A stretch of DNA of 57,872 nt from Gemmatimonadota bacterium. Lineage in GTDB: Bacteria; Gemmatimonadota; Gemmatimonadetes; Gemmatimonadales; GWC2-71-9. The position numbers and the translations under genes are program-made. The notes under the pieces were generated by a model. The model did not search any database, was not told the DNA's origin, and saw only the letters and a list, made by a program, of their open reading frames with translations. Location of the stretch: positions 1 through 57,872 of the forward strand of contig JADFIT010000005.1 of NCBI GenBank assembly GCA_022566515.1, given 5' to 3'. Below, piece by piece: positions 1,467 to 40,753 of this stretch. Each line of letters opens with the position of its first letter. Positions within the stretch are counted from its first letter, which is position 1.

Positions 1467-4400
1467 TCAACCGCCGTCGCGCGGTTCTCCGGTGAGGCGC
1501 GCGATGCGGTTGCGTATGTCGCGGACGATGGGTTGCAGCTCCTCGTCCGCGTCCTGCCACAAATCTACGAACCTGTCGTAGTACTCAATGGCCTTGTCGG
1601 TCGCGCCGCGTTCCTCGTAGATCTCGCCGAGTCGTTTGTACGTCTGCGCTAGCGTCCGATACTCGTCGAGCAGCCGGAAAGCCCCTGGGTTACTTTCAGC
1701 ACGCTCGTACACAGCGAGGGCTGAATCCGTTTGACCGGCTGCATCGTAGGTCCGGGCGAGTTCGAAGAGACCGCAACTGGCACATCCGCTTTCGTCGTAG
1801 AACGTCCGATATCCCACGATCGCTTCGGCCACTCGGCCCTCTGCCAGGGCCACCGAGGCTCGCGCTGCGTGCCGGAAGAAATCGCCGGCCTTGAGTCCGT
1901 CATTTACCTCTTCCTCGTACTCAGCCAGCAACCGTCCGGCTACTCGAGGCCGCCCGGCGTTGGCGTAGAAGTGTACGAGGGCGAGATACGGGCGGTCCGA
2001 CGGATCTATTTCACCCAACGGGAATCGTTCCAGGGCCGCGGCGACTCTTTGCAGGCCATCCTCGGGCGCGTCGCGATAGAATACGTCCAACCACCCCCAA
2101 TTGGCGGCCTGGGAGATGTACGCGGCGTGGTTCTCCTCCTCTTCGCTGGCGTCCATGGAGTTTCGCAGCTGACGCTCCGCTCGTGCGAGCTGACCGCGTA
2201 TCTCGGCCACGTTGGCTCGTAAACCTGCCGCCCCTCTCCTCCAGGACGGGCTGGATCGTTGGGTTGCCTGGAGCGAGTCGTAATAGACGTCCGCGACCAC
2301 GTAATCACGCTCGCTGGACGCCAGCATGCCGTGAAAGAAGATCGTCCATGGACTGCTTGGCGCCCGCTCGGTCATTCGCTCCAGTGTCGCCCGTGCTTCC
2401 GCGATCTTTCCTTGTGCCAGCTGCGCACGGATGGCGTTGGTGTAGGCGACGAGGATGTCCTCGGTCTCGATTGCACGAACCGCCAGTTCCTCTCCCTCTT
2501 CCCATTGCCGCATCCCGTTGAGGTGCACCGCCAGATTGTTCAGCGCCGTCGCCTCGTAGGGGTCGATTTCCAGTATCGAGCGGTAGGCGCTGGTGACTTT
2601 CGCTCGATCATAGTTCACGTTGTCGTAGTAATAGGCTTCTGTCAGGTAGCGCTCCACGTCCGGCAACCGCATGCGGTTTTCAAACGCCTTTGCGGCTGCC
2701 GCATTGATGCGGGATCGGGGCGCGCCGGCGTTGCTCAAAACCACTGCGAGCTTGCGGTAGGCCATGGCGAACGTGGAGTCGATCGCGATTGTCTCTTCCA
2801 AGAGCCCGCTGGCACGTTCGAAATCACCGTGGTCTCCGGCCTTGACCGCGCGGGAGTATGTCTCGAGGGCCGCCAGCGAACTCGTCGTTACCTGCTCCAA
2901 GGGCTCACCTGCACGGATCGTCCTGAGGGATTCTCCGATACGCTCTCTCAGCTTCGCCGACAACCGGTCGACGGCATCGATGATCTTGGTGTCATCCTCT
3001 GCCGTTTCCCGGAGCCCCACGAGCACCGACCCGTCGGCGGTTGACAGCAATCGGGCCGAGACGACATAACCACGGCCGAGCGTGCCGATGTCGCCTGCGA
3101 GAACCGCCTTCACCCCTTCGCGTCGGGCGACCTCGGTTGCGAGGTCGACGTCCAGCGGCGTCATGGGATCGCGGCCCATGCGCCGCAGCACGTCGCCGGT
3201 GGCCGACGCGCCCATCAACCGCAAAACCGGTGATTGGGTGAGATCGATCCGCAACAGCTCGGTGACGGACGTGCCGAGGTTCGCCTCCGGCGTGCGATCC
3301 TCGAACTCGGCCACGATGATGCGATCCCGTTCCTCTAGTATGCCCGCCGCCACCAGCGTACCGACCGGGCCGATGCCCAGGTTGCGCATCGTCATGTAGC
3401 CGGTGGCCAACACCGCCAAACCTGCGAAAGCGACGCCGCCGCCGAGCAATGATTTCTGCCAGGTAAACCACCGTTGAATGCCGCTGGTGGGTGTGGGCAC
3501 GGCCACGCCGGTCGTGTAAGCCAGGGCGCGCTGACGTTCGTGATGCCCGGTGAAGAGCATGATCGGAAGACCGATTACGAGGAGACCGATCGCTCCGTAG
3601 AATACCCAATTCGGCAAACCTAGCTGGTAGACAAGCAGGTACACGATGGCGAGGGCGCCGACGGAGGCGAGCGCGAACAGGGCCCCGACACGGACGGGAT
3701 GCGCTCGACGTGCTGCCGCATCGTAATCCACGGCTGGGACGGGCGCGGTTCCCGTGGGCGTCATGCCGCCGCTGGGCGTGCTCATCGCCTCGAGTTGCGG
3801 CACCAACTCCGCCGCCGTCTGCCAACGGTCGGCCGGCCGCTTCTCCAAACATCGCATCACCAACGCGTTCAGCGCGGCCGACACCGCAGGTCGCCGTTGC
3901 GCCAACGGCTCCGCCGCCTGGTTCACGTGGGCCGCCATCACCGCCTGAGGCGTGGCACCGGTAAACGGCGGCTGTCCGCTCAACATCTCGTACGCCAATG
4001 CCCCCACGGCATATATGTCCGCCCGGTGGTCCGTGTGTGGATCCGCCGCCGCCTGCTCCGGCGCCATGTAGGCCGGCGTCCCCAACGCTACGCCAAGCGA
4101 TGTCAACGACGACGCGCCGGACGATGCCGTAACCGCCTTCGCCACGCCGAAGTCGGCAACTACCGCGTGGCCGTCGCTGAGCAGAATGTTGTCGGGCTTG
4201 ATGTCCCGGTGCACAACGCCGTTGCGGTGGGCATAGGAGAGGGCGTCCGCCACTTCCGTGAGAATCCGCACGGCTTCGCCCACTGGCAGCTCGCCCTCGC
4301 GGTTGAGCTTCGTGCGCAACGACTCCCCGTCGATGTAGGGCATCACGTAATAGAGCAGATCGTCTGCGGCGCCAGCGGTGAGAAGCGGGACGACGTGAGG

Positions 4401-4616
4401 GTGCTGCAGCCTGGCGGCGAGCTGGATCTCCCGGTGAAAGCGCTCCTGGTTAACGCCGGCGGTCATGTCGGGCGGCAGGACTTTGATGACCACTCGCCGG
4501 TCCAGTTCTACTTCCAGCGCGAGAAATACACGGCTCATGCCGCCGCCACCCAATTCCTCGATGAGGCGGTAGTTGTCGCCGACGGCTGCTTGAAGGCGAT
4601 CGAATAGTTCGGCCAA
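1467..4616 (-). CDS. Membrane Ser/Thr protein kinase with TolB/FlgO-like and TPR C-terminal region
   Basis: About 1,050 residues. The N-terminal domain is a eukaryotic-type Ser/Thr kinase: glycine loop GGGGMSRVF near residue 23, catalytic Lys in VVIKVLPP near 45, HRDIKPDN near 136, DFG near 156 and GTPAYMAPEQ near 179. A linker with three hydrophobic segments follows (about 310-330, 337-355 and 390-410). After it come a domain starting IIVAEFEDRTPEANLG, like the TolB/FlgO-type region often found behind such kinases, and a long TPR-rich sensor region to the end. An open frame extends back to an ATG at 4829, but those 71 extra residues look like translated promoter DNA. The TTG at 4616 gives the usual short N-terminus before the kinase fold, though without a clear SD. 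The signal sensed and the targets are unknown. Confidence 0.88.
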   Translation of the reverse strand: MAELFDRLQAAVGDNYRLIEELGGGGMSRVFLALEVELDRRVVIKVLPPDMTAGVNQERFHREIQLAARLQHPHVVPLLTAGAADDLLYYVMPYIDGESLRTKLNREGELPVGEAVRILTEVADALSYAHRNGVVHRDIKPDNILLSDGHAVVADFGVAKAVTASSGASSLTSLGVALGTPAYMAPEQAAADPHTDHRADIYAVGALAYEMLSGQPPFTGATPQAVMAAHVNQAAEPLAQRRPAVSAALNALVMRCLEKRPADRWQTAAELVPQLEAMSTPSGGMTPTGTAPVPAVDYDAAARRAHPVRVGALFALASVGALAIVYLLVYQLGLPNWVFYGAIGLLVIGLPIMLFTGHHERQRALAYTTGVAVPTPTSGIQRWFTWQKSLLGGGVAFAGLAVLATGYMTMRNLGIGPVGTLVAAGILEERDRIIVAEFEDRTPEANLGTSVTELLRIDLTQSPVLRLMGASATGDVLRRMGRDPMTPLDVDLATEVARREGVKAVLAGDIGTLGRGYVVSARLLSTADGSVLVGLRETAEDDTKIIDAVDRLSAKLRERIGESLRTIRAGEPLEQVTTSSLAALETYSRAVKAGDHGDFERASGLLEETIAIDSTFAMAYRKLAVVLSNAGAPRSRINAAAAKAFENRMRLPDVERYLTEAYYYDNVNYDRAKVTSAYRSILEIDPYEATALNNLAVHLNGMRQWEEGEELAVRAIETEDILVAYTNAIRAQLAQGKIAEARATLERMTERAPSSPWTIFFHGMLASSERDYVVADVYYDSLQATQRSSPSWRRGAAGLRANVAEIRGQLARAERQLRNSMDASEEEENHAAYISQAANWGWLDVFYRDAPEDGLQRVAAALERFPLGEIDPSDRPYLALVHFYANAGRPRVAGRLLAEYEEEVNDGLKAGDFFRHAARASVALAEGRVAEAIVGYRTFYDESGCASCGLFELARTYDAAGQTDSALAVYERAESNPGAFRLLDEYRTLAQTYKRLGEIYEERGATDKAIEYYDRFVDLWQDADEELQPIVRDIRNRIARLTGEPRDGG

Positions 4617-6935: not shown

Positions 6936-8960
6936 GTGAAACCCCTCTGGTTGTCTCTCTTTTTGGGATTGATTGGCGCTGCTAGTCCTCCAGGTCTATG
7001 GGCGGAGGTGGTACGGGTCGTGGTCGATCGGCGAACCGACGTGCTGGAGGGAAGGGCCTTTGGAACGGTAGGGGCGTACGAAAAACTCGTCGGTCGGATC
7101 TACTTCGTGTTTGACCCCTCCAACCCGATGAACGCCCGCATCGTGGACCTCGACAAGGCCCCGCGCAACGCCGACGGATTGGTTGAGGCGTGGGCAAACT
7201 TCATGGTGCTGCAGCCGAAGAATCTCGGGCGCAGCGCGCGTACGGCGTTGCTGGAGGTGAGCAACAGGGGCGGCAAGGCAATCATCTCCTATTTCAATGG
7301 GGCCCGGGGCTCTCGAGACCCTGAGCTGGAGGAGCATTTCGGCGACGGCCTGCTGATGCGGCAAGGCCTCACATTGATCTGGATAGGCTGGCAACATGAC
7401 CTGCCTGTCCAAGAAGACATGATGCGCGCGCACCTTCCTGTGGCGTCGGACAACGGCCAGGTCATTAAAGGGCTGGTTCGCAGCGATTGGACCGTCGATC
7501 GCGCGACGAATACGCTGGGCCTGGGTCACCGCGCCCAGATCGCGTACCGGGTAGGCGACCCCGCCCACTCCGACAACGTGCTCACCGTGCGTGACGGTCG
7601 TATGGCCGAGCGTCGTATCGTTCCGAGAAATGAGTGGCGTTTCGCTCGTGAAGAGAGCGGCCGGGTAGTGGACGATCTCACTCATATTTACATGGAGAAA
7701 GGCTTCGAAGCGGGAAAGATCTACGAAATGGTGTACGTTGCGGAGGAACCGACAGTGGTCGGTCTCGGCCTGGCAATCGTTCGCGATGTGATGTCGTATG
7801 CCAAGTACGGTAACGGTGTGGAGTTTCATGTAGATCGGGGTATCGCCATTGGCATTTCCCAAACCGGCCGGTTCCTACGTCACTTCCTCTATCAGGGGTT
7901 CAATACGGACGAACACGGTCGCAAAGTATACGACGGAATCATGGCGCACACCGCTGGTGCGGGCCGTGGCAGCTTCAACCATCGGTTCGCTCAGCCGTCG
8001 CGCGATGGGCACAGGTACTCCGCGTTTTTCTATCCGACCGACATCTTTCCCTTCACGAGCCGTGTCCAAACAGACCCCGAGACAGGGCGCACTGACGGCT
8101 TGCTCGCGCACCAACACAACGACGCTCACCTACCGAAGGTTTTCTACACGAACTCCGGGTACGAATATTGGGGTCGCGCAGCGTCGCTGATCCATACCAC
8201 GGTGGACGGGCGGGCGGACATCGACCCCTATCCCAACGAGCGAATTTACCATTTGGCGAGCGGGCAGCACTTCGTTGGTCGGTTCCCGCCGCCTGAGAGC
8301 AGTCGGCTGCCGAACTCGGCTGCGTACAGCGGAAATCCGCTCAACTTTCAGTATACGCTGCGGGCACTTCTCGTGCGCATGGTCGATTGGGTGTGGGACG
8401 TCAACAATCCACCGCCCAGCATGTACCCGAGGATTGATACAGGCACACTCGTTCCTATCAACGAGGTGAAGTTTCCCAAACTGGCCGGATTGAACTTTCC
8501 CAAGGTGACGCACGATGCGTATCGTTTGAACTATGGATCCAGGTGGAGTCAGGGAATCGTAGACATCCAACCCCCCGAGATAGGAGAGCGCTTCCCGGTC
8601 ATGGTGGCGCAGGTGGATAGGTTCGGGAACGAGCGCGGCGGGGTACCTTCGGTGGAGATTCTGGCACCTCTTGCCACCTACGCGCCGTGGAATCTCCGGA
8701 CCGGGTTCGCAGGGGGTACCGATGAGTTGACCAATTTCGTCGGCACGTACGTTCCGATGTCGAAAACGGAGGAGGAACGCCGGGGCGGCGGCGACCCGCG
8801 GCCGAGCATCGAGTCGCTCTACCGCGGCGAGACAGACTACTCCAGGGCCGCCAGAGAGGCCGCACGATCGCTCGCAGAGCGCGGGTTGTTGCTCGACGAG
8901 CACATAGACGCCGTCGTCGCTCGGGCGGAGGCGCATTGGGATTGGGTGATGAATAGGTAG
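6936..8960 (+). CDS. Secreted alpha/beta-hydrolase (Abhydrolase_10 type)
   Basis: 674 residues. An ATG after an ACGGAG-type ribosome site opens a Sec signal peptide (cleavage near WAEV, residues 22-25). The mature protein begins with the VVVDRRTDVLEGRAFGTVGAYE element typical of the large 'alpha/beta hydrolase domain-containing' family (PF20091). The nucleophile elbow GISQTG is near residue 308, within HVDRGIAIGISQTGRFLRHF, and HQHNDAHLPKVFYTNSGYEYWG follows. Substrate unknown; members are usually exported esterase-like enzymes. The length is normal for the family. It stands as its own unit, with a G/A-rich imperfect repeat between it and the malic enzyme gene. Confidence 0.82.
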   Translation: MKPLWLSLFLGLIGAASPPGLWAEVVRVVVDRRTDVLEGRAFGTVGAYEKLVGRIYFVFDPSNPMNARIVDLDKAPRNADGLVEAWANFMVLQPKNLGRSARTALLEVSNRGGKAIISYFNGARGSRDPELEEHFGDGLLMRQGLTLIWIGWQHDLPVQEDMMRAHLPVASDNGQVIKGLVRSDWTVDRATNTLGLGHRAQIAYRVGDPAHSDNVLTVRDGRMAERRIVPRNEWRFAREESGRVVDDLTHIYMEKGFEAGKIYEMVYVAEEPTVVGLGLAIVRDVMSYAKYGNGVEFHVDRGIAIGISQTGRFLRHFLYQGFNTDEHGRKVYDGIMAHTAGAGRGSFNHRFAQPSRDGHRYSAFFYPTDIFPFTSRVQTDPETGRTDGLLAHQHNDAHLPKVFYTNSGYEYWGRAASLIHTTVDGRADIDPYPNERIYHLASGQHFVGRFPPPESSRLPNSAAYSGNPLNFQYTLRALLVRMVDWVWDVNNPPPSMYPRIDTGTLVPINEVKFPKLAGLNFPKVTHDAYRLNYGSRWSQGIVDIQPPEIGERFPVMVAQVDRFGNERGGVPSVEILAPLATYAPWNLRTGFAGGTDELTNFVGTYVPMSKTEEERRGGGDPRPSIESLYRGETDYSRAAREAARSLAERGLLLDEHIDAVVARAEAHWDWVMNR

Positions 8961-9012
8961 GCAGGATGCATACCGCCTCCGCATGCCTACTGCCTAAATA
9001 GGGAACAGATAA

Positions 9013-10677
9013 ATGAATCGGCACCATTCAGAGGGCTCCGGCCAGCCGGCAGAAACGCCTCCCACAGGTGTGGATCTCCTGTACGATCCTCGGTGGAACA
9101 AGGGCACAGGGTTCACGGAACGCGAGCGAGACGAGCTACACATCCGGGGGCTCATCCCGCCCCGCATGTTTTCCCAGGAGGAGCAGGCGCGCCGCATTCT
9201 GGGCAATTTCCATCGCAAGGGCTCAGACCTCGACAAGTACATCTTCATGATCGGCCTGCAGGACCGAAATCAGACGCTGTTCTACAGTATCGTCATCGAC
9301 AACATCGAGGAGATGGCGCCCATCATTTACACGCCGACAGTGGGAGAGGCGTGCCAGAATTTCGCCCACATCTTTCGCCGTGCGAAAGGACTGTACGTGA
9401 CGGCCCACGACAGGGGCCGAGTTGCAGACCTGTTGCGCAATTGGCCTGAGCGCGACGTGGCCGTGATCGTGGTGTCCGACGGCGAGCGCATTCTCGGTCT
9501 CGGAGATCTCGGGGCGGGCGGTATGGGCATCCCCAACGGCAAGCTGTCACTCTACACTGCGTGCGCTGGAATTCATCCGTGGCGTTGTCTGCCGGTCCTG
9601 CTCGACGTCGGTACGGACAACGAAGCCATTCGAAACGACCCTCTTTATTTGGGCATCAATCAACCCCGGCTTCGAGGGCAGGAGTATGATGACTTGGTCG
9701 AAGAATTCATGATGGGAGTGCGGGAGGTCTTCCCGGGAGCCTTGATCCAATTCGAAGATTTTGCGACGCGAAACGCCGTTCGCCTGTTGGACAGATACCG
9801 AACCCGCATGTGCGCCTTCAACGATGATATCCAAGGGACGGCCGCCGTCACTCTCGCCGGCTTGCTCTCAGCGGCCAGAATCACCCAGCAGGGTTTGCTT
9901 GACCAGACGATCGTCTTTCTGGGTGCGGGAAGTGCGGCTACCGGCATCGGTCACCTCATCGTTTCCGCCATGCAGCGGGAGGGACTCTCCCGAGAAGAAG
10001 CCCTAGTGCATGTCTGGTTCGTCGATTCCAAGGGATTGGTGGTAAAGAGCCGGGACGATCTCGCGGAACACAAACGTCCCTTCGCACACGAGTGCGAGTT
10101 TTTGCCGGACCTGCTCTCAGTGGTTCGGGAACTTCACCCCACGACGTTGATCGGCGTTTCAGGACAACCTGGCACCTTTACCGAACCGGTGGTGAAAGCG
10201 ATGGCGGATGCGAATGAGCGGCCGGTCATCCTCGCACTGTCCAACCCCACCTCCAGGGCGGAGTGCACGGCAGAGCAGGCGTACCGTTGGACCGGCGGCC
10301 GGGCGGTGTTTGCCAGCGGTAGTCCGTTCGGCCCGGTAGAGGTGGACGGCAAGACCTGCGTTCCTGGCCAGGGCAACAATGTCTACATATTCCCGGGCCT
10401 CGGACTGGGTGTGGTGGCATCGGGTGCACGGTTTGTCACTGACGACATGTTTCTCACTGCCGCGAAGGTCCTTGCACAGCTTGTCACGGAGGAGTCGCTG
10501 GCGCAGGGATCGATCTACCCGCCGTTGACCCAGATTCGGGAAGTGTCGGCGGAGATCGCTGCTGCGGTGGCTCGCCTAGCACAAGAGCAGGGCCTGGCGA
10601 CGCGGGAAGTACCACGAGACGCCCTGGCGTTCGTGAAAGCACAGATGTATGAGCCGGTGTACGAGAGCTACGTTTGA
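9013..10677 (+). CDS. maeA: NAD-dependent malic enzyme (oxaloacetate-decarboxylating)
   Basis: 554 residues, the full length of the large malic enzyme family. It converts malate to pyruvate and CO2 with reduction of NAD(P). Visible motifs are the substrate tyrosine in YTPTVGEACQNF, the catalytic lysine in IPNGKLSLYTACAGI, the metal-binding EDF in IQFEDFATRNA with NDDIQGTAAV, and a Rossmann motif FLGAGSAATGIG. The large size and the N-terminal GTGFTERERDEL element match the NAD type; cofactor choice is not proven. Its stop overlaps the start of the next gene. Confidence 0.93.
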   Translation: MNRHHSEGSGQPAETPPTGVDLLYDPRWNKGTGFTERERDELHIRGLIPPRMFSQEEQARRILGNFHRKGSDLDKYIFMIGLQDRNQTLFYSIVIDNIEEMAPIIYTPTVGEACQNFAHIFRRAKGLYVTAHDRGRVADLLRNWPERDVAVIVVSDGERILGLGDLGAGGMGIPNGKLSLYTACAGIHPWRCLPVLLDVGTDNEAIRNDPLYLGINQPRLRGQEYDDLVEEFMMGVREVFPGALIQFEDFATRNAVRLLDRYRTRMCAFNDDIQGTAAVTLAGLLSAARITQQGLLDQTIVFLGAGSAATGIGHLIVSAMQREGLSREEALVHVWFVDSKGLVVKSRDDLAEHKRPFAHECEFLPDLLSVVRELHPTTLIGVSGQPGTFTEPVVKAMADANERPVILALSNPTSRAECTAEQAYRWTGGRAVFASGSPFGPVEVDGKTCVPGQGNNVYIFPGLGLGVVASGARFVTDDMFLTAAKVLAQLVTEESLAQGSIYPPLTQIREVSAEIAAAVARLAQEQGLATREVPRDALAFVKAQMYEPVYESYV

Positions 10678-35676: not shown

Positions 35677-35936
35677 GGGCGAATCGTAACGATAGGTCCC
35701 AGCGTAGCCAAGGAGTGTCGTTGGGCAGCCCGTCACGGCTAGGTGACAGAGGAGGCAGGGGAGGCATCAGAGGGGATTGTGCGCGTTGGGCCCGCCTTTA
35801 TGTGACTTAGATCGCCGCGCAGGGCGGGTCCGAAAGCGAACAATGATGGAGTGGGAATGGGCCCGGCGCCGGCGCCGCCGGCCACGGGGCTTGATGATGG
35901 CGTAAGTTGTTTTACTGCAATAGATTAGGTTCGTCT

Positions 35937-37466
35937 ATGTGTATGCTTAGATCAGGCAGGACCCTCGGTCTTGGATTGGCCATCGGCATGGGAGCCACGT
36001 TGTCCTGTGTTTACCCCACTGAGCGGAGCGAGCAGCTCAGGGTTGTGATCGACTCGATCCCGGAGCTGTTGCGGGGCGAATTCTGGGGGCTCAGCGCCCA
36101 ACTGGTCGATGCCAGCGGGACGCCCCTCGAGAACGCTGAGATCTCGTTCTCTTCGAGTGTCCCTCTCGTGGCTACGATCAACCAGGAGGGGGAGATGGTG
36201 GCGGTCAGCGTCGGTACGGCCGAGATCACGGCGGTGGCCATTGAGTTTGCCGAGGCTGAGGTGGCCGCCCAGTTGGTGAGAGTCCACGATCTCATCGAAA
36301 TCGACAGCGTGCGACCGCGTATCGTCCGATTCGGCGACACGGTATCCATCTACGGCACGGGCTTGAATCCGGAGCCGTTCTTACTCGTGTCACTGGGTGG
36401 GGCAGAGGTGCCCATAAAGAACTATGTCCCCGTCGATCCCGCCGCACTGAATCGCTTCGGACGGCTCACCGTGTGGGTGCAACCGCCGGCCCCGTTCCTG
36501 ACGCAGGCTCTAGTGCTTGGTATCGAGGGGCTGGCCACGAGTATCGACACGATGAGGGTGCTCCAGCGGGACATCTACGAGCCCAACGACACGATTCCTT
36601 GGGATTTTGGGGTCCTGGACCGGCAGATACGGAATCCGGCACTGGCGTTCGAACATCGGCCCCGCGAGGACAAATTGCTCTTCGACTGGTACCGGTTCAC
36701 ACAGGCTGCGCCTGAGGATCGGACGATCATCATCCGGTCCAATCAGGTGGGGCCGGAAACGTATCAGGTGTTCTTCACCGATTCGTTGTTCTGGGACTCC
36801 ACCGCGGGCGATTTCGGTGTCGGGCCCCAGGCCTGGACCATCGGGCCGGGCATATACGCGTGCCAGGGCATTCCGTTCAAGCCCCCGCAGCTCTTGGCGG
36901 ATTCCGTTGTCATAGCTCTCAAGGACTTCCCGCAGGGTCAGTACGACCTCCTGGTCGCGTACGCCAAGCCCGGCGCGTACGAGCTTGCGATCCTGCGCCA
37001 ATACCGGTCTGCTCTTCCACCGGACGCATCCGAGGAAAACGACTTTTGCGACCTCGCGGCGCCTCTGCCGCTCAACGTGACCCGCAGCCTGACGATCGAC
37101 AACCCGCACGACATCGATTGGTACCGGTTCACCGTGGGGGCGGACGGGCGACAAGTCACGTTCGATGTCGATGCAACGGAACAGGACGCCGATCTCGACA
37201 TCTATGTCTTGCGCGATGACTTGCCGACAACGCTCACGCTCATGGGTTTGAGCAACATCGGCGGCGTCACCGACGAGGTCGTCGTACCGCTGGATGCCGG
37301 CGATTACTTCTTGGTAGTGGTCGATTTCGCCGGCGTCCCAACCGAATACACTTTGACATCGGTAGACGTCGTCGCCGTGCCCGATATGGTGCCGGCGCCG
37401 CTTCCGGAGATGCCGCTTGCGAAGCCGCAGCGGTCCGTTCCGGTTCTGTTCAAGGGCAACAGATAA
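35937..37466 (+). CDS. Lipoprotein with Big-like, IPT/TIG-like and pre-peptidase C-terminal-type domains
   Basis: 509 residues from the ATG at 35937; a TTG at 35907 is a weaker start. The signal peptide ends in a lipobox-like GATLSC. The mature protein has an Ig-like Big-type domain (about 30-120, AQLVDASGTPLENAEISFSS), a TIG-like domain (PRIVRFGDTVSIYGTGLNP), then two PPC-like beta domains with EPNDT and EENDF openings and DWYRFT repeats; the second ends ADLDIYVLRDD. These are extracellular binding modules without catalytic residues. It begins a tight four-gene run with a kinase, a TPR protein and a beta-barrel. Confidence 0.8.
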   Translation: MCMLRSGRTLGLGLAIGMGATLSCVYPTERSEQLRVVIDSIPELLRGEFWGLSAQLVDASGTPLENAEISFSSSVPLVATINQEGEMVAVSVGTAEITAVAIEFAEAEVAAQLVRVHDLIEIDSVRPRIVRFGDTVSIYGTGLNPEPFLLVSLGGAEVPIKNYVPVDPAALNRFGRLTVWVQPPAPFLTQALVLGIEGLATSIDTMRVLQRDIYEPNDTIPWDFGVLDRQIRNPALAFEHRPREDKLLFDWYRFTQAAPEDRTIIIRSNQVGPETYQVFFTDSLFWDSTAGDFGVGPQAWTIGPGIYACQGIPFKPPQLLADSVVIALKDFPQGQYDLLVAYAKPGAYELAILRQYRSALPPDASEENDFCDLAAPLPLNVTRSLTIDNPHDIDWYRFTVGADGRQVTFDVDATEQDADLDIYVLRDDLPTTLTLMGLSNIGGVTDEVVVPLDAGDYFLVVVDFAGVPTEYTLTSVDVVAVPDMVPAPLPEMPLAKPQRSVPVLFKGNR

Positions 37467-37473
37467 CGGATTG

Positions 37474-39105
37474 ATGAACTGCGCGAACTGCAACAGTCCG
37501 GTCCCCGAGGACAGCAAGTTCTGTCTGGAATGCGGTGCCGACCTGTCAGATCCGGGAAGCGGGCCTCGGACGGTTGAGAAACCCGATGAGCTGATCACCC
37601 GCTTGACCCGAACCCTCGAGGGGCGTTACCGAGTCGCCAAGATGGTGGGTCGTGGGGGGATGGGTGCGGTGTTTCTTGCCCAAGACCTCACGCTCGAGCG
37701 ACCTGTTGCCATCAAAGTGCTGCCGCCCGAAGTGTCGCATGACGAGACGCTCGTAGGACGTTTCGAGAGGGAAGCTCGCACGGCAGCCAAGCTGGACCAT
37801 CCCAACATCATCCCGATCTTTGCGGTCGAGAGTTCCGGCGACCTGCACTATTTCGTCATGAAGTTCGTCGATGGAGAGTCTTTGGAGCAGGTGTTGGCGA
37901 GCGGCTCGCTGTCCATGGAACAGATCCAGGAGTGTCTCTGGGAAGCTGCCCGCGCGCTAGGCCACGCTCATACGCGCAACGTAGTGCACCGCGACATCAA
38001 GCCGGGCAACATCATGTTCGATCACGACGGCCGGGTGATGCTGGCGGACTTCGGCATTTCCAAGGCGATGCAATCGTCCACCCAGTACACTCAAACCGGC
38101 CAGGTCATTGGAACGCCCTTCTACATGAGTCCGGAACAGGCCAAGGGGCAGGACGTCGATGGCCGGTCTGATCAGTATTCGCTAGCCGTGGTCGGGTTTC
38201 AAATGATCACCGGGCGATTGCCGTTCCAGGACCAAGCGGTTCACACGATCATCTACAAGCACATATTCGAAGAGCCACCCTCGATACGGGAGCTGCGTCC
38301 CGATTGTCCCGCCTATGTGGCAGCGGCGCTGCACAAGGCCCTCGCGAAAGAGCCAGACGGTCGTTTCCCCACGATGGACGAATTTGCAGCGGCGGTGATG
38401 CCCCATCGTCGTATTTCATCCACGTTGGGAGTGGGTAGCGGGGGCGCCGAGCGGGCGTCGCCCGATGCCCCAACCACCATCACGCCCACCACCGGCCCCA
38501 CGATAGTCACCCCGCAGAAGGAGCCGAGGAAGCGACGCGTTGGCGTAGCGACAGCGTTGGTGTCGGCGATGTTGTTGGTGACGGGTGGGAGCGGATACTG
38601 GGCGTGGCAGGAAGGCATGCTGGAACGGTTCGGGCTGCCGGTGTCCGGTGAAGACGGTTCGGCCGTCGACGATCCTCAGGATTCGCAGCTGGCGGCAGCG
38701 CCCGTGGCGATCGACTCAACTGAAATAAGGGACAGCATCGCCGGCGCCGAGAGAGATTCGCTCGCGCTTTTGGCGCAACGGAGACAAGACTCGCTCGACA
38801 ATGTGACTCGGCAACTCGTCGAGGCGAACCGCCGCAACCGGCGGCAACAGACGCAAACACCGCCGACACGACCGGCGCCGCGGCCTCAGTTCGGTGCCAT
38901 CTCCGTGAACGTGTTGGGTAATTTTGGGACCGTGTATATCGATGACGCGCGCATCAAAGGAACACCACTGATCGACCACCAGGTCCTGGCGGGAATGCAT
39001 GTCGTTCGTATCACCAACCCCCGGTGTCGGGATTGGGTGGACACCGTGCGGGTTGCTGTGAATGAGACTTATCGCGCCACTGTCACTCTCAATTGTGGAG
39101 CCTGA
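37474..39105 (+). CDS. Ser/Thr protein kinase with N-terminal zinc ribbon and C-terminal PEGA domain
   Basis: 543 residues from the ATG at 37474, seven bases after the lipoprotein stop. Cys3, Cys6, Cys17 and Cys20 make a zinc ribbon. The kinase has GRGGMGAVFLA (59-69), Lys81 in VAIKVLPPE, HRDIKPGN with Asp174, ADFGISKA and GTPFYMSPEQA. One membrane helix lies near 355-377. A Gln/Arg/Asp-rich extracytoplasmic linker (QRRQDSLDNVTRQLVEANR) leads to a PEGA-like domain (about 473-543, GTVYIDDARIKGTPLIDH). PEGA domains are thought to bind cell-wall or surface ligands. Probably an envelope-sensing kinase linked to its neighbours. Confidence 0.88.
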   Translation: MNCANCNSPVPEDSKFCLECGADLSDPGSGPRTVEKPDELITRLTRTLEGRYRVAKMVGRGGMGAVFLAQDLTLERPVAIKVLPPEVSHDETLVGRFEREARTAAKLDHPNIIPIFAVESSGDLHYFVMKFVDGESLEQVLASGSLSMEQIQECLWEAARALGHAHTRNVVHRDIKPGNIMFDHDGRVMLADFGISKAMQSSTQYTQTGQVIGTPFYMSPEQAKGQDVDGRSDQYSLAVVGFQMITGRLPFQDQAVHTIIYKHIFEEPPSIRELRPDCPAYVAAALHKALAKEPDGRFPTMDEFAAAVMPHRRISSTLGVGSGGAERASPDAPTTITPTTGPTIVTPQKEPRKRRVGVATALVSAMLLVTGGSGYWAWQEGMLERFGLPVSGEDGSAVDDPQDSQLAAAPVAIDSTEIRDSIAGAERDSLALLAQRRQDSLDNVTRQLVEANRRNRRQQTQTPPTRPAPRPQFGAISVNVLGNFGTVYIDDARIKGTPLIDHQVLAGMHVVRITNPRCRDWVDTVRVAVNETYRATVTLNCGA

Positions 39106-39107
39106 GA

Positions 39108-40130
39108 ATGCTGAGGAAACTCACGCTCTTGGCCGTGTTGTTGGGATTCCATCCCTGGCAAGCAGTAGCACAGGAAAACGCGGCTCTCCGGCGGGCGCGG
39201 GAAGCTTACGGCGCACTCGACTACCGTGCCGCGATCGCTGCGGCTCAGCGCGCCTTGGGCCAGCAGCTCTCTGGCGGCGAGCTGGTTGAAGTCTACGAAC
39301 TGCTAGGCTTCATGTACGGGGCACTGGATTCGTCAGGCCTCGCCGTCGAGGCATTCCGCAACCTGATCATCCTCGATCCGGATCGGGAGCCCGACCCGGG
39401 ACGCGTGTCTCCAGCGATTACTTCGCTGTACGCCTCGGCATTGGGACAGGTCCTCGTCGTTCGCAAGGTAGGTATAGACAGCGTGTCCTTTGTTCAGGGC
39501 AATGGCCGGGTTCCGTTGCGGTTCGACGTGAGCCAGCCGGCGGCGGTTCGGGTCCGAGCGGTTGGCAATGGCCTCGATCTCCTCATCGACTCACTGTCTG
39601 CCGCAGGTGCGGCTGGCGTTTTTTGGTCCCCTGTGCTGGAGGACGGCACGCCCGTCCCGCCGGGTCGGTATCAACTGGTGGTCGAGGCGTTCGCCCGTCC
39701 TGAGCAATACGCCTCTCAGGTTGTGGTAGAAGTGCGCCACGGAACGGTAGACACGCTCGAGCACATTTCGAGCCTGCCCGGATACGATTTCCAGGACGAG
39801 ATAGAGTTCCCGGGCCGCAACTGGCGACCCCTTGGCCTTGCAGCGCTCTACACAGCTGTGGCGTCTGCTGCGTCCCTGGCAATGGAGAGCTCAGGGCTCG
39901 GCAGCCCACCCCGGGAGGAGATCGCCGGCGTGGGAGCTGCCGTGTTGCTGACGGGGTTCATCATGAGCATCAAGAAGCCCGATGCACGGGCAGTCCCGGC
40001 GAATATTCGTTACAACGAGCTGCTGCGGGAACAGATCACCCAACGAAACGCGGATATCGCGCGCCAAAACGCGGTTCGGCGGCGGCAAGTGGAGCTTACG
40101 GTGGTGCCGGTGACAGGAGGCTCTCGATGA
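39108..40130 (+). CDS. TPR-like envelope protein with two C-terminal membrane segments
   Basis: 340 residues from the ATG at 39108, two bases after the kinase stop. A signal peptide or anchor covers residues 1-23 (cleavage near AVAQ). Helical repeats follow (ALRRAREAYGALDYRAAIAAAQRAL; VYELLGFMYGALDSSGLAVEAFRNLI), then an Ig-like strand region (PVPPGRYQLVVEAFA). Two hydrophobic segments near 245-262 and 280-296 are followed by an Arg/Gln-rich tail. Family not recognised. The gene overlaps the next by ATGA, so the set is translationally coupled. Confidence 0.77.
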   Translation: MLRKLTLLAVLLGFHPWQAVAQENAALRRAREAYGALDYRAAIAAAQRALGQQLSGGELVEVYELLGFMYGALDSSGLAVEAFRNLIILDPDREPDPGRVSPAITSLYASALGQVLVVRKVGIDSVSFVQGNGRVPLRFDVSQPAAVRVRAVGNGLDLLIDSLSAAGAAGVFWSPVLEDGTPVPPGRYQLVVEAFARPEQYASQVVVEVRHGTVDTLEHISSLPGYDFQDEIEFPGRNWRPLGLAALYTAVASAASLAMESSGLGSPPREEIAGVGAAVLLTGFIMSIKKPDARAVPANIRYNELLREQITQRNADIARQNAVRRRQVELTVVPVTGGSR

Positions 40131-40753
40131 AGCGCACCGGTCTAGCGGTCGTCGCCGTGGCGCTGTGTGCTCCCCAGGGGATCCTTGCGCAAACGATACG
40201 CTTCAATTTTGACGCCGTGAGCCTCACCTACCAGGAGGTGCGGGAGGGACGCTCCTCCACCGGTCAGGGCGGTGGGGGTGGCATCGAGCTGCGTGTGGGC
40301 CGATTCCGTCTCGATGCGCGCGCCTACACCGCTCGGCTAGAACCCGATTCAGGTGGCTCGGAGTACGATTTCAAGCAGGTCGATGTTCGAGTGAGCTACG
40401 CCGTGAATAAGCTGCTTGCACTCGAAGTTGGCGGTGGACGACGCTACGTCGACCCGGAAAACGCGACTCAAGAAGTGGGCCTTATTCGCATCGGTGTGTT
40501 GTCGGAGAACCAAATGACCCGTCTCGCCGATGTGTGGGTGCGGGGGGCCTATTTGGTGAACCCTCGCTTCTCCGGGGGGGGCAGTGCCGACTTAGCCTTC
40601 GAGTTCCAGCTCGGTGTCGGTCTCGGTACCGCAAACAAGCGATTCCGGTTTCATGCCGAATACGAATTTCAGAGGATCGACCGTGAGGTGGGTGCCAACG
40701 ACGTCCCGATTCAGTTGAGCCTGGCCCGGGTCGGCATTTCGTTCGGCTTCTAG
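40127..40753 (+). CDS. Outer-membrane beta-barrel-like protein
   Basis: 208 residues with a signal peptide (about 1-21, ending GILAQ). The mature part alternates hydrophobic and polar residues in about eight strands (IELRVGRFRLDARAYTARL; FKQVDVRVSYAVNKLLALEV and so on) and ends in aromatic GISFGF, the usual beta-barrel assembly signal. Last gene of the lipoprotein-kinase-TPR run. It may be a small porin-like partner of the lipoprotein; that is inference. Confidence 0.75.
   Translation: MKRTGLAVVAVALCAPQGILAQTIRFNFDAVSLTYQEVREGRSSTGQGGGGGIELRVGRFRLDARAYTARLEPDSGGSEYDFKQVDVRVSYAVNKLLALEVGGGRRYVDPENATQEVGLIRIGVLSENQMTRLADVWVRGAYLVNPRFSGGGSADLAFEFQLGVGLGTANKRFRFHAEYEFQRIDREVGANDVPIQLSLARVGISFGF

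Follow-up and report, generated by a model that had tools for sequence, protein, structure and literature searches.

Four adjacent genes in a 57,872-nucleotide stretch of Gemmatimonadota DNA (the whole of it is called the window here) very likely form one functional device, a reading that is well supported by their joint inheritance. On balance we favour the reading that this one operon encodes one trans-envelope module, in which information is relayed from a surface receptor to a Hanks-type kinase; sensing is our best inference for what the module serves. Gemmatimonadota are a phylum common in soil and, to our knowledge, surface-to-Hanks-kinase information transfer in Gram-negative bacteria has been worked out in very few cases. 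The module is a compact, recurrent four-part set with predicted places in the envelope, which makes the question testable by interaction and kinase assays, and it gives a probable role to three protein families that have scarcely been annotated, if at all.

Layout and joint inheritance of the four genes

The source assembly comprises 3.59 Mb and is 95% complete, and the window's closest homologues on named contigs all belong to Gemmatimonadota/Gemmatimonadales MAGs. The four genes (P1 to P4) share one strand, with junctions of 7 bases (P1/P2) and 2 bases (P2/P3) followed by a 4-base ATGA overlap (P3/P4). These spacings had been given in a preliminary description of the DNA, and the open reading frame (ORF) map reproduces them to the base.

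35737-35936, + strand: intergenic region 5' of P1, 200 bp, facing a divergent gene (ORF map)
35937-37466, + strand: P1, predicted lipoprotein, 509 aa (ORF map, domain searches)
37474-39105, + strand: P2, zinc ribbon, Hanks Ser/Thr kinase, transmembrane (TM) segment, linker and PEGA domain in that order, 543 aa (ORF map, domain searches)
39108-40130, + strand: P3, 340 aa, with signal peptide, TPR, a FlgD-type Ig domain, a pair of hydrophobic helices and a long helix at the C terminus
40127-40753, + strand: P4, predicted secreted 10-strand outer-membrane beta-barrel, 208 aa, starting inside the P3 overlap

Because the upstream neighbour is divergent (200 bp from P1) and the downstream neighbour convergent (19 bp from P4), no further gene is a candidate for membership of the unit, and inside it there is no conserved substrate or transcription factor gene. 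Judged from gene geometry, the 200-bp intergenic region probably holds the promoter. A consensus scan of that region returned no sigma-70-like promoter, and a promoter/terminator scan at both ends of the unit gave nothing convincing. We infer that the four genes are carried on a single transcript.

Across 36 loci in relatives all four genes kept the same order and strand in 27; contig ends cut the set in 8, and one locus (L108) was rearranged to P2-P3-P4-P1. Further loci beyond the 36, in which some P3 genes were located by tblastn, gave the same result, and the 4-base P3/P4 overlap recurs in most loci. A P3 orthologue was present in 36 of 201 genomes of the order, accompanied by P1 in all 36 and by P4 in 35. 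Co-occurrence tests covered P1, P3 and P4, with P1 found by single-sequence search, and the same genomes carry all three (Fisher p ~1e-36, n=201). All mismatches lie at contig ends, namely genomes with only P1 or only P4 (G095, G193, G173 and G151) and one with P3 but no P4 (G071). The preliminary description had proposed neighbourhood conservation as a check and had named a lack of co-occurrence in relatives as refuting; the module passes this refuting test. The distribution is patchy, and one congener (G127, 94% complete) gave no P1, P4 or P3 matches at the thresholds of the order search.

The five flanking genes are common, as a set, to one congener only, and the quartet is therefore a conserved unit that travels without its surroundings. 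In a genome from another family of the class (G229) the order is P3-P4-P1-P1'-P2, with the genes still adjacent and P3 falling inside the window's clade. That the genes stay linked through such rearrangement argues strongly that they function together. Elsewhere P1 can be divergent: at locus L050 (genome G005) two PD40 beta-propeller proteins precede the kinase (L050:5303-8397, +), apparently within its operon, and in a second copy of the module in G189 (L070) P1 is divergent yet adjacent. Mirror-tree correlations among the four proteins were 0.75-0.91, values that we do not count as evidence of contact because joint inheritance in one operon explains them. The claim that the set is one functional unit thus has strong support from co-occurrence, order and overlaps, and from linkage maintained through rearrangement and in different flanks; the set is conserved to a degree well above chance.

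Domain composition of the four proteins

The domains and segments located within the proteins were as follows.

36126-36239, + strand: P1 Big_2-like Ig domain, residues 64-101 (Pfam E 3.6e-4, below cut-off)
37113-37319, + strand: P1 C-terminal PPC domain, residues 393-461 (Pfam E 1.8e-6, over cut-off)
37480-37545, + strand: P2 N-terminal zinc ribbon, cytoplasmic side, C3, C6, C17 and C20 invariant
37627-38361, + strand: P2 kinase domain, residues 52-296 (Pkinase E 1.8e-47)
38539-38607, + strand: P2 single TM segment, residues 356-378 (family hydropathy peak 1.97)
38929-39093, + strand: P2 PEGA domain, C-terminal and on the periplasmic side, residues 486-540 (over the Pfam cut-off, E 2e-4)
39825-39971, + strand: P3 hydrophobic helices, residues 240-261 and 269-288 (AF2; mean hydropathy about 1.5, borderline)

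P1 has the signal peptide and lipobox cysteine that identify a bacterial lipoprotein at the level of sequence (ATLS followed by Cys24, which is invariant across 21 homologues), and presumably sits at the outer membrane. Big_2 was matched in 13 of these 21 homologues (best E 4.9e-8) and PPC in 10 (both Pfam), and the family profile run against the PDB touched Big_2 structures and, weakly, the collagen-binding PPC domain of collagenase. By eye, residues ~120-208 read as TIG-like and residues ~213-355 as a second PPC-like repeat. The assignment of P1 as a lipoprotein built of binding modules agrees with the invariant lipobox cysteine and the PPC and Big_2 matches. Cys309 (36861-36863) and Cys371 (37047-37049) are likewise invariant in 21/21 aligned homologues, and a disulfide between the two C-terminal domains of P1 is possible.

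P2 displays the full Hanks motif set (catalytic K, E, HRD, DFG and an APE-like motif). K81, E100, D174, N179 and D192, which include the VAIK lysine, HRD and DFG, are invariant in 18 homologues at about 45-62% identity, and catalysis is therefore under selection in the window's subfamily. As judged by its residues, P2 is a catalytically complete Hanks kinase. PEGA (PF08308) scored 21.6 bits in P2 against a curated cut-off of 20.8, and both it (best E 1.9e-14) and the zinc ribbon were found in all 18 homologues; the linker between the TM segment and PEGA is proline-rich. Together with the TM segment these matches confirm the transmembrane kinase with zinc ribbon and external PEGA that had been read from the letters of the sequence. 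FHA domains and PP2C phosphatases occur elsewhere in the genome and could serve as readers and erasers. The whole genome holds ~50 Pkinase-domain matches, and a second one inside the window lies at 3816-4571 (-) in a 1132-codon open frame.

The AF2 model of P3 (pLDDT 86) contains a helical TPR region, an Ig domain and a pair of hydrophobic helices, plus a long helix that ends in a strand. FlgD_ig was matched in 28 of 31 homologues, and the P3 profile matched TPR proteins and FlgD in the PDB. Foldseek and phmmer gave fragmentary Ig or TPR matches only, with no solved structural relative of full-length P3. The two helices probably form a membrane hairpin, which would make P3 a membrane protein; we grade this topology as probable rather than certain because the helices are only moderately hydrophobic. 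The signal peptide implies an orientation of the hairpin in which its flanking charges break the positive-inside rule. P3 had been described as a TPR protein with membrane segments: the TPR part stands at the level of the family, being weak in the window's copy, the membrane segments are only probable, and the FlgD-type Ig domain was absent from that reading. A genome-wide scan with short conserved patterns recovered P3 in Gemmatimonadota only, and no plasmid record encodes it.

P4 was modelled by AF2 with 10 strands (pLDDT 90.6, pTM 0.81), and Foldseek placed it nearest to the solved folds of OpcA, Pla and OmpT, all 10-strand outer-membrane barrels. OMP_b-brl was matched in 3 of 33 homologues. 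With its signal peptide and closed, even-stranded antiparallel barrel in the model, P4 is predicted to be an outer-membrane beta-barrel, in line with the small barrel originally proposed. The signal peptides, lipobox, TM segment and barrel model also uphold the view of the four proteins as an envelope-spanning set.

A wider superfamily with swapped partners

A P3 superfamily profile detected members in 63 of 395 genomes of the phylum, nearly all from the same order. We inspected 28 distant loci. In nearly all of them the gene immediately 5' of P3 encodes a relative of the zinc ribbon/PEGA kinase, and in most the P3 stop is overlapped by 4 bases by the gene for a secreted protein, about 215-235 residues long; this small protein is related to P4 by profile in some loci only. 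L157 departs from this pattern, as do L143 and L145, which retain PEGA or TM-PEGA alone. What stands 5' of the kinase differs widely between loci, and includes Big_2/Big_1/beta-helix proteins of 1081 and 1404 residues and a 133-residue lipoprotein. The window's quartet is one subfamily of an apparently undescribed, recurrent module with swapped surface partners. In one branch (L072:7882 +, L077:13452 +, L076:7642-8613 -) a protein with a conserved cysteine-rich 'CRACPRDC' motif follows kinase-P3 and replaces the small barrel-like protein.

Six related modules (L074, L149, L153, L158, L160 and L162) encode pseudokinases in which N, A or G stands in for the HRD aspartate; DFG too is altered in several, and the zinc ribbon and PEGA are kept. 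At two loci the kinase domain is absent, with no loss of PEGA, P3 or the small secreted protein:

L145:6967-7779 and 8037-9635, - strand: kinase-less form, in which TM-PEGA or only PEGA precedes P3 and the small secreted protein
L143:7410-7790, + strand: kinase-less form, in which TM-PEGA or only PEGA precedes P3 and the small secreted protein

At L145 the next gene upstream on the same strand encodes an NtrC-type response regulator. The pseudokinase and kinase-less modules share one supported P3 clade with some active kinases, and the P3 tree is compatible with one or several kinase losses. Their existence means that phosphorylation is dispensable in some branches, and they serve as natural experiments on the contribution of the kinase.

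A constant core with a variable surface protein fits interchangeable receptors on one relay. It fits a surface-anchoring device too, and for this reason anchoring is kept as an alternative below. One possibility, which we stop just short of favouring, is that these modules constitute a previously undescribed class of trans-envelope relay in Gemmatimonadota, in which a constant zinc ribbon-kinase-TM-PEGA protein, a TPR/FlgD-Ig adaptor and a 10-strand barrel accept pluggable receptors, and the output is swapped between active kinase, pseudokinase and none.

Proposed mechanism, alternatives and known systems

In the outside-to-inside relay that we favour, P1, with its Ig-like and PPC binding domains, would be a variable outer-membrane receptor that binds something or reports the state of the outer membrane, and the P4 barrel would be the outer-membrane platform that holds it. 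P3, through its TPR and FlgD-type Ig regions, would act as a periplasmic adaptor, probably held at the inner membrane. The PEGA domain and TM segment of P2 would relay the change to the cytoplasmic kinase, whose domains would alter their association state or activity, leading to the phosphorylation of cytoplasmic targets. Artificial dimerisation of the Hanks kinase PpkA induces its pathway (PMC11881912), and by analogy the relay would probably operate via altered association of the kinase domains. Contacts between the proteins, a ligand, substrates and the outside-to-inside direction all belong to this proposal. Counting against it are the moderate hydrophobicity and flanking charges of the P3 hairpin, the related modules that keep the core without catalysis, and the absence of a conserved substrate or transcription factor gene from the unit; the FHA and PP2C proteins elsewhere in the genome count in its favour.

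Information might instead run from the inside out, with a cytoplasmic signal (for example via the zinc ribbon) causing the kinase to control assembly, display or gating of P1, P3 and P4. Such control would suit a kinase whose constant encoded partners are envelope components and to which no substrate gene is linked, and the surface partners of related modules are large and adhesin-like (Big_2, Big_1, beta-helix). However, PEGA lies on the periplasmic side of P2, a usual place for an input domain, and neither export nor gating is a recognised function of P3 or P4. We consider inside-out control unlikely. Less probable still is a structural role, in which PEGA-TM, P3, P4 and the lipoprotein would together tether the two membranes across the envelope or anchor surface proteins, with the kinase as a regulatory add-on. 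The six pseudokinase and two kinase-less modules, none of which has lost PEGA, P3 or the small secreted protein, are what such a device would predict, whereas the window's subfamily retains every catalytic residue across its 18 homologues, at about 45-62% identity. An anti-phage defence kinase operon is very improbable: P2 matches PADLOC models of the PD-T4-6 kinase (E 6e-92), but these matches are confined to the generic kinase domain, PASTA kinases match about equally, and no defence model matches P1, P3 or P4; we rejected a defence identity as generic kinase similarity only. Chance juxtaposition of an ordinary kinase with unrelated envelope genes, conceivable in a genome whose ~50 kinase-domain matches put kinases near many genes, is contradicted by order, overlaps and co-occurrence at no fewer than 27 loci whose flanks are unrelated, and we give it almost no weight.

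Our open-access literature searches found no described system of this composition, as the preliminary description had claimed, although TagQRST-PpkA is functionally close; open-access text on PEGA kinases and on Gemmatimonadota kinases contained nothing describing the module. The outside-to-inside relay can be compared with known systems part by part. With the hook-capping protein FlgD, P3 shares its Ig domain only (FlgD_ig in 28/31 members, and profile matches to FlgD structures); P3 differs in its TPRs and helical hairpin, and there is no flagellar context in the unit. With the PASTA kinases PknB/Stk1, P2 shares the kinase domain family and the single-TM layout, PknA/PknB being its best PDB matches. 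The best NCBIfam model for P2, NF033483 (E 7e-94), matched over the kinase domain only and at 315.9 bits against a curated cut-off of 450 bits, and P2 gave no match to PASTA repeats; a PASTA kinase identity was rejected on both counts. In contrast to PknB/Stk1, P2 has PEGA outside, a zinc ribbon inside and envelope partners in its operon.

In the Rcs system (RcsF-OmpA/IgaA-RcsCDB) an outer-membrane lipoprotein and a barrel signal across the periplasm to an inner-membrane protein (PMC7553776), the same combination of parts as predicted here. Rcs uses a histidine-kinase phosphorelay, whereas the module has a Hanks kinase, and the two have no recognised homologous parts. We rejected membership of Rcs because the operon's kinase is Hanks-type and no Rcs or IgaA family was matched by any of the four proteins.

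In the H1-T6SS threonine phosphorylation pathway of Pseudomonas aeruginosa, which responds to outer-membrane damage, the outer-membrane lipoprotein TagQ and the periplasmic protein TagR act upstream of the inner-membrane kinase PpkA (PMC11881912). Our predictions likewise combine an outer-membrane lipoprotein and a periplasmic protein with an inner-membrane Hanks kinase. The T6SS sheath gene VipB/TssC (PF05943) gave no match in the genome, with a control genome positive, and on this ground and the lack of an ABC transporter in the unit we rejected membership of TagQRST-PpkA. The module differs in having neither a TagS/TagT ABC transporter nor TagR, its four proteins matching no such family, in its kinase ectodomain, which is PEGA, and in adding an outer-membrane barrel and a TPR/FlgD-Ig protein. 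There is no recognised homology in the non-kinase parts. By analogy, TagQ-TagR-PpkA would be the functionally nearest known case, and the likeness is one of composition.
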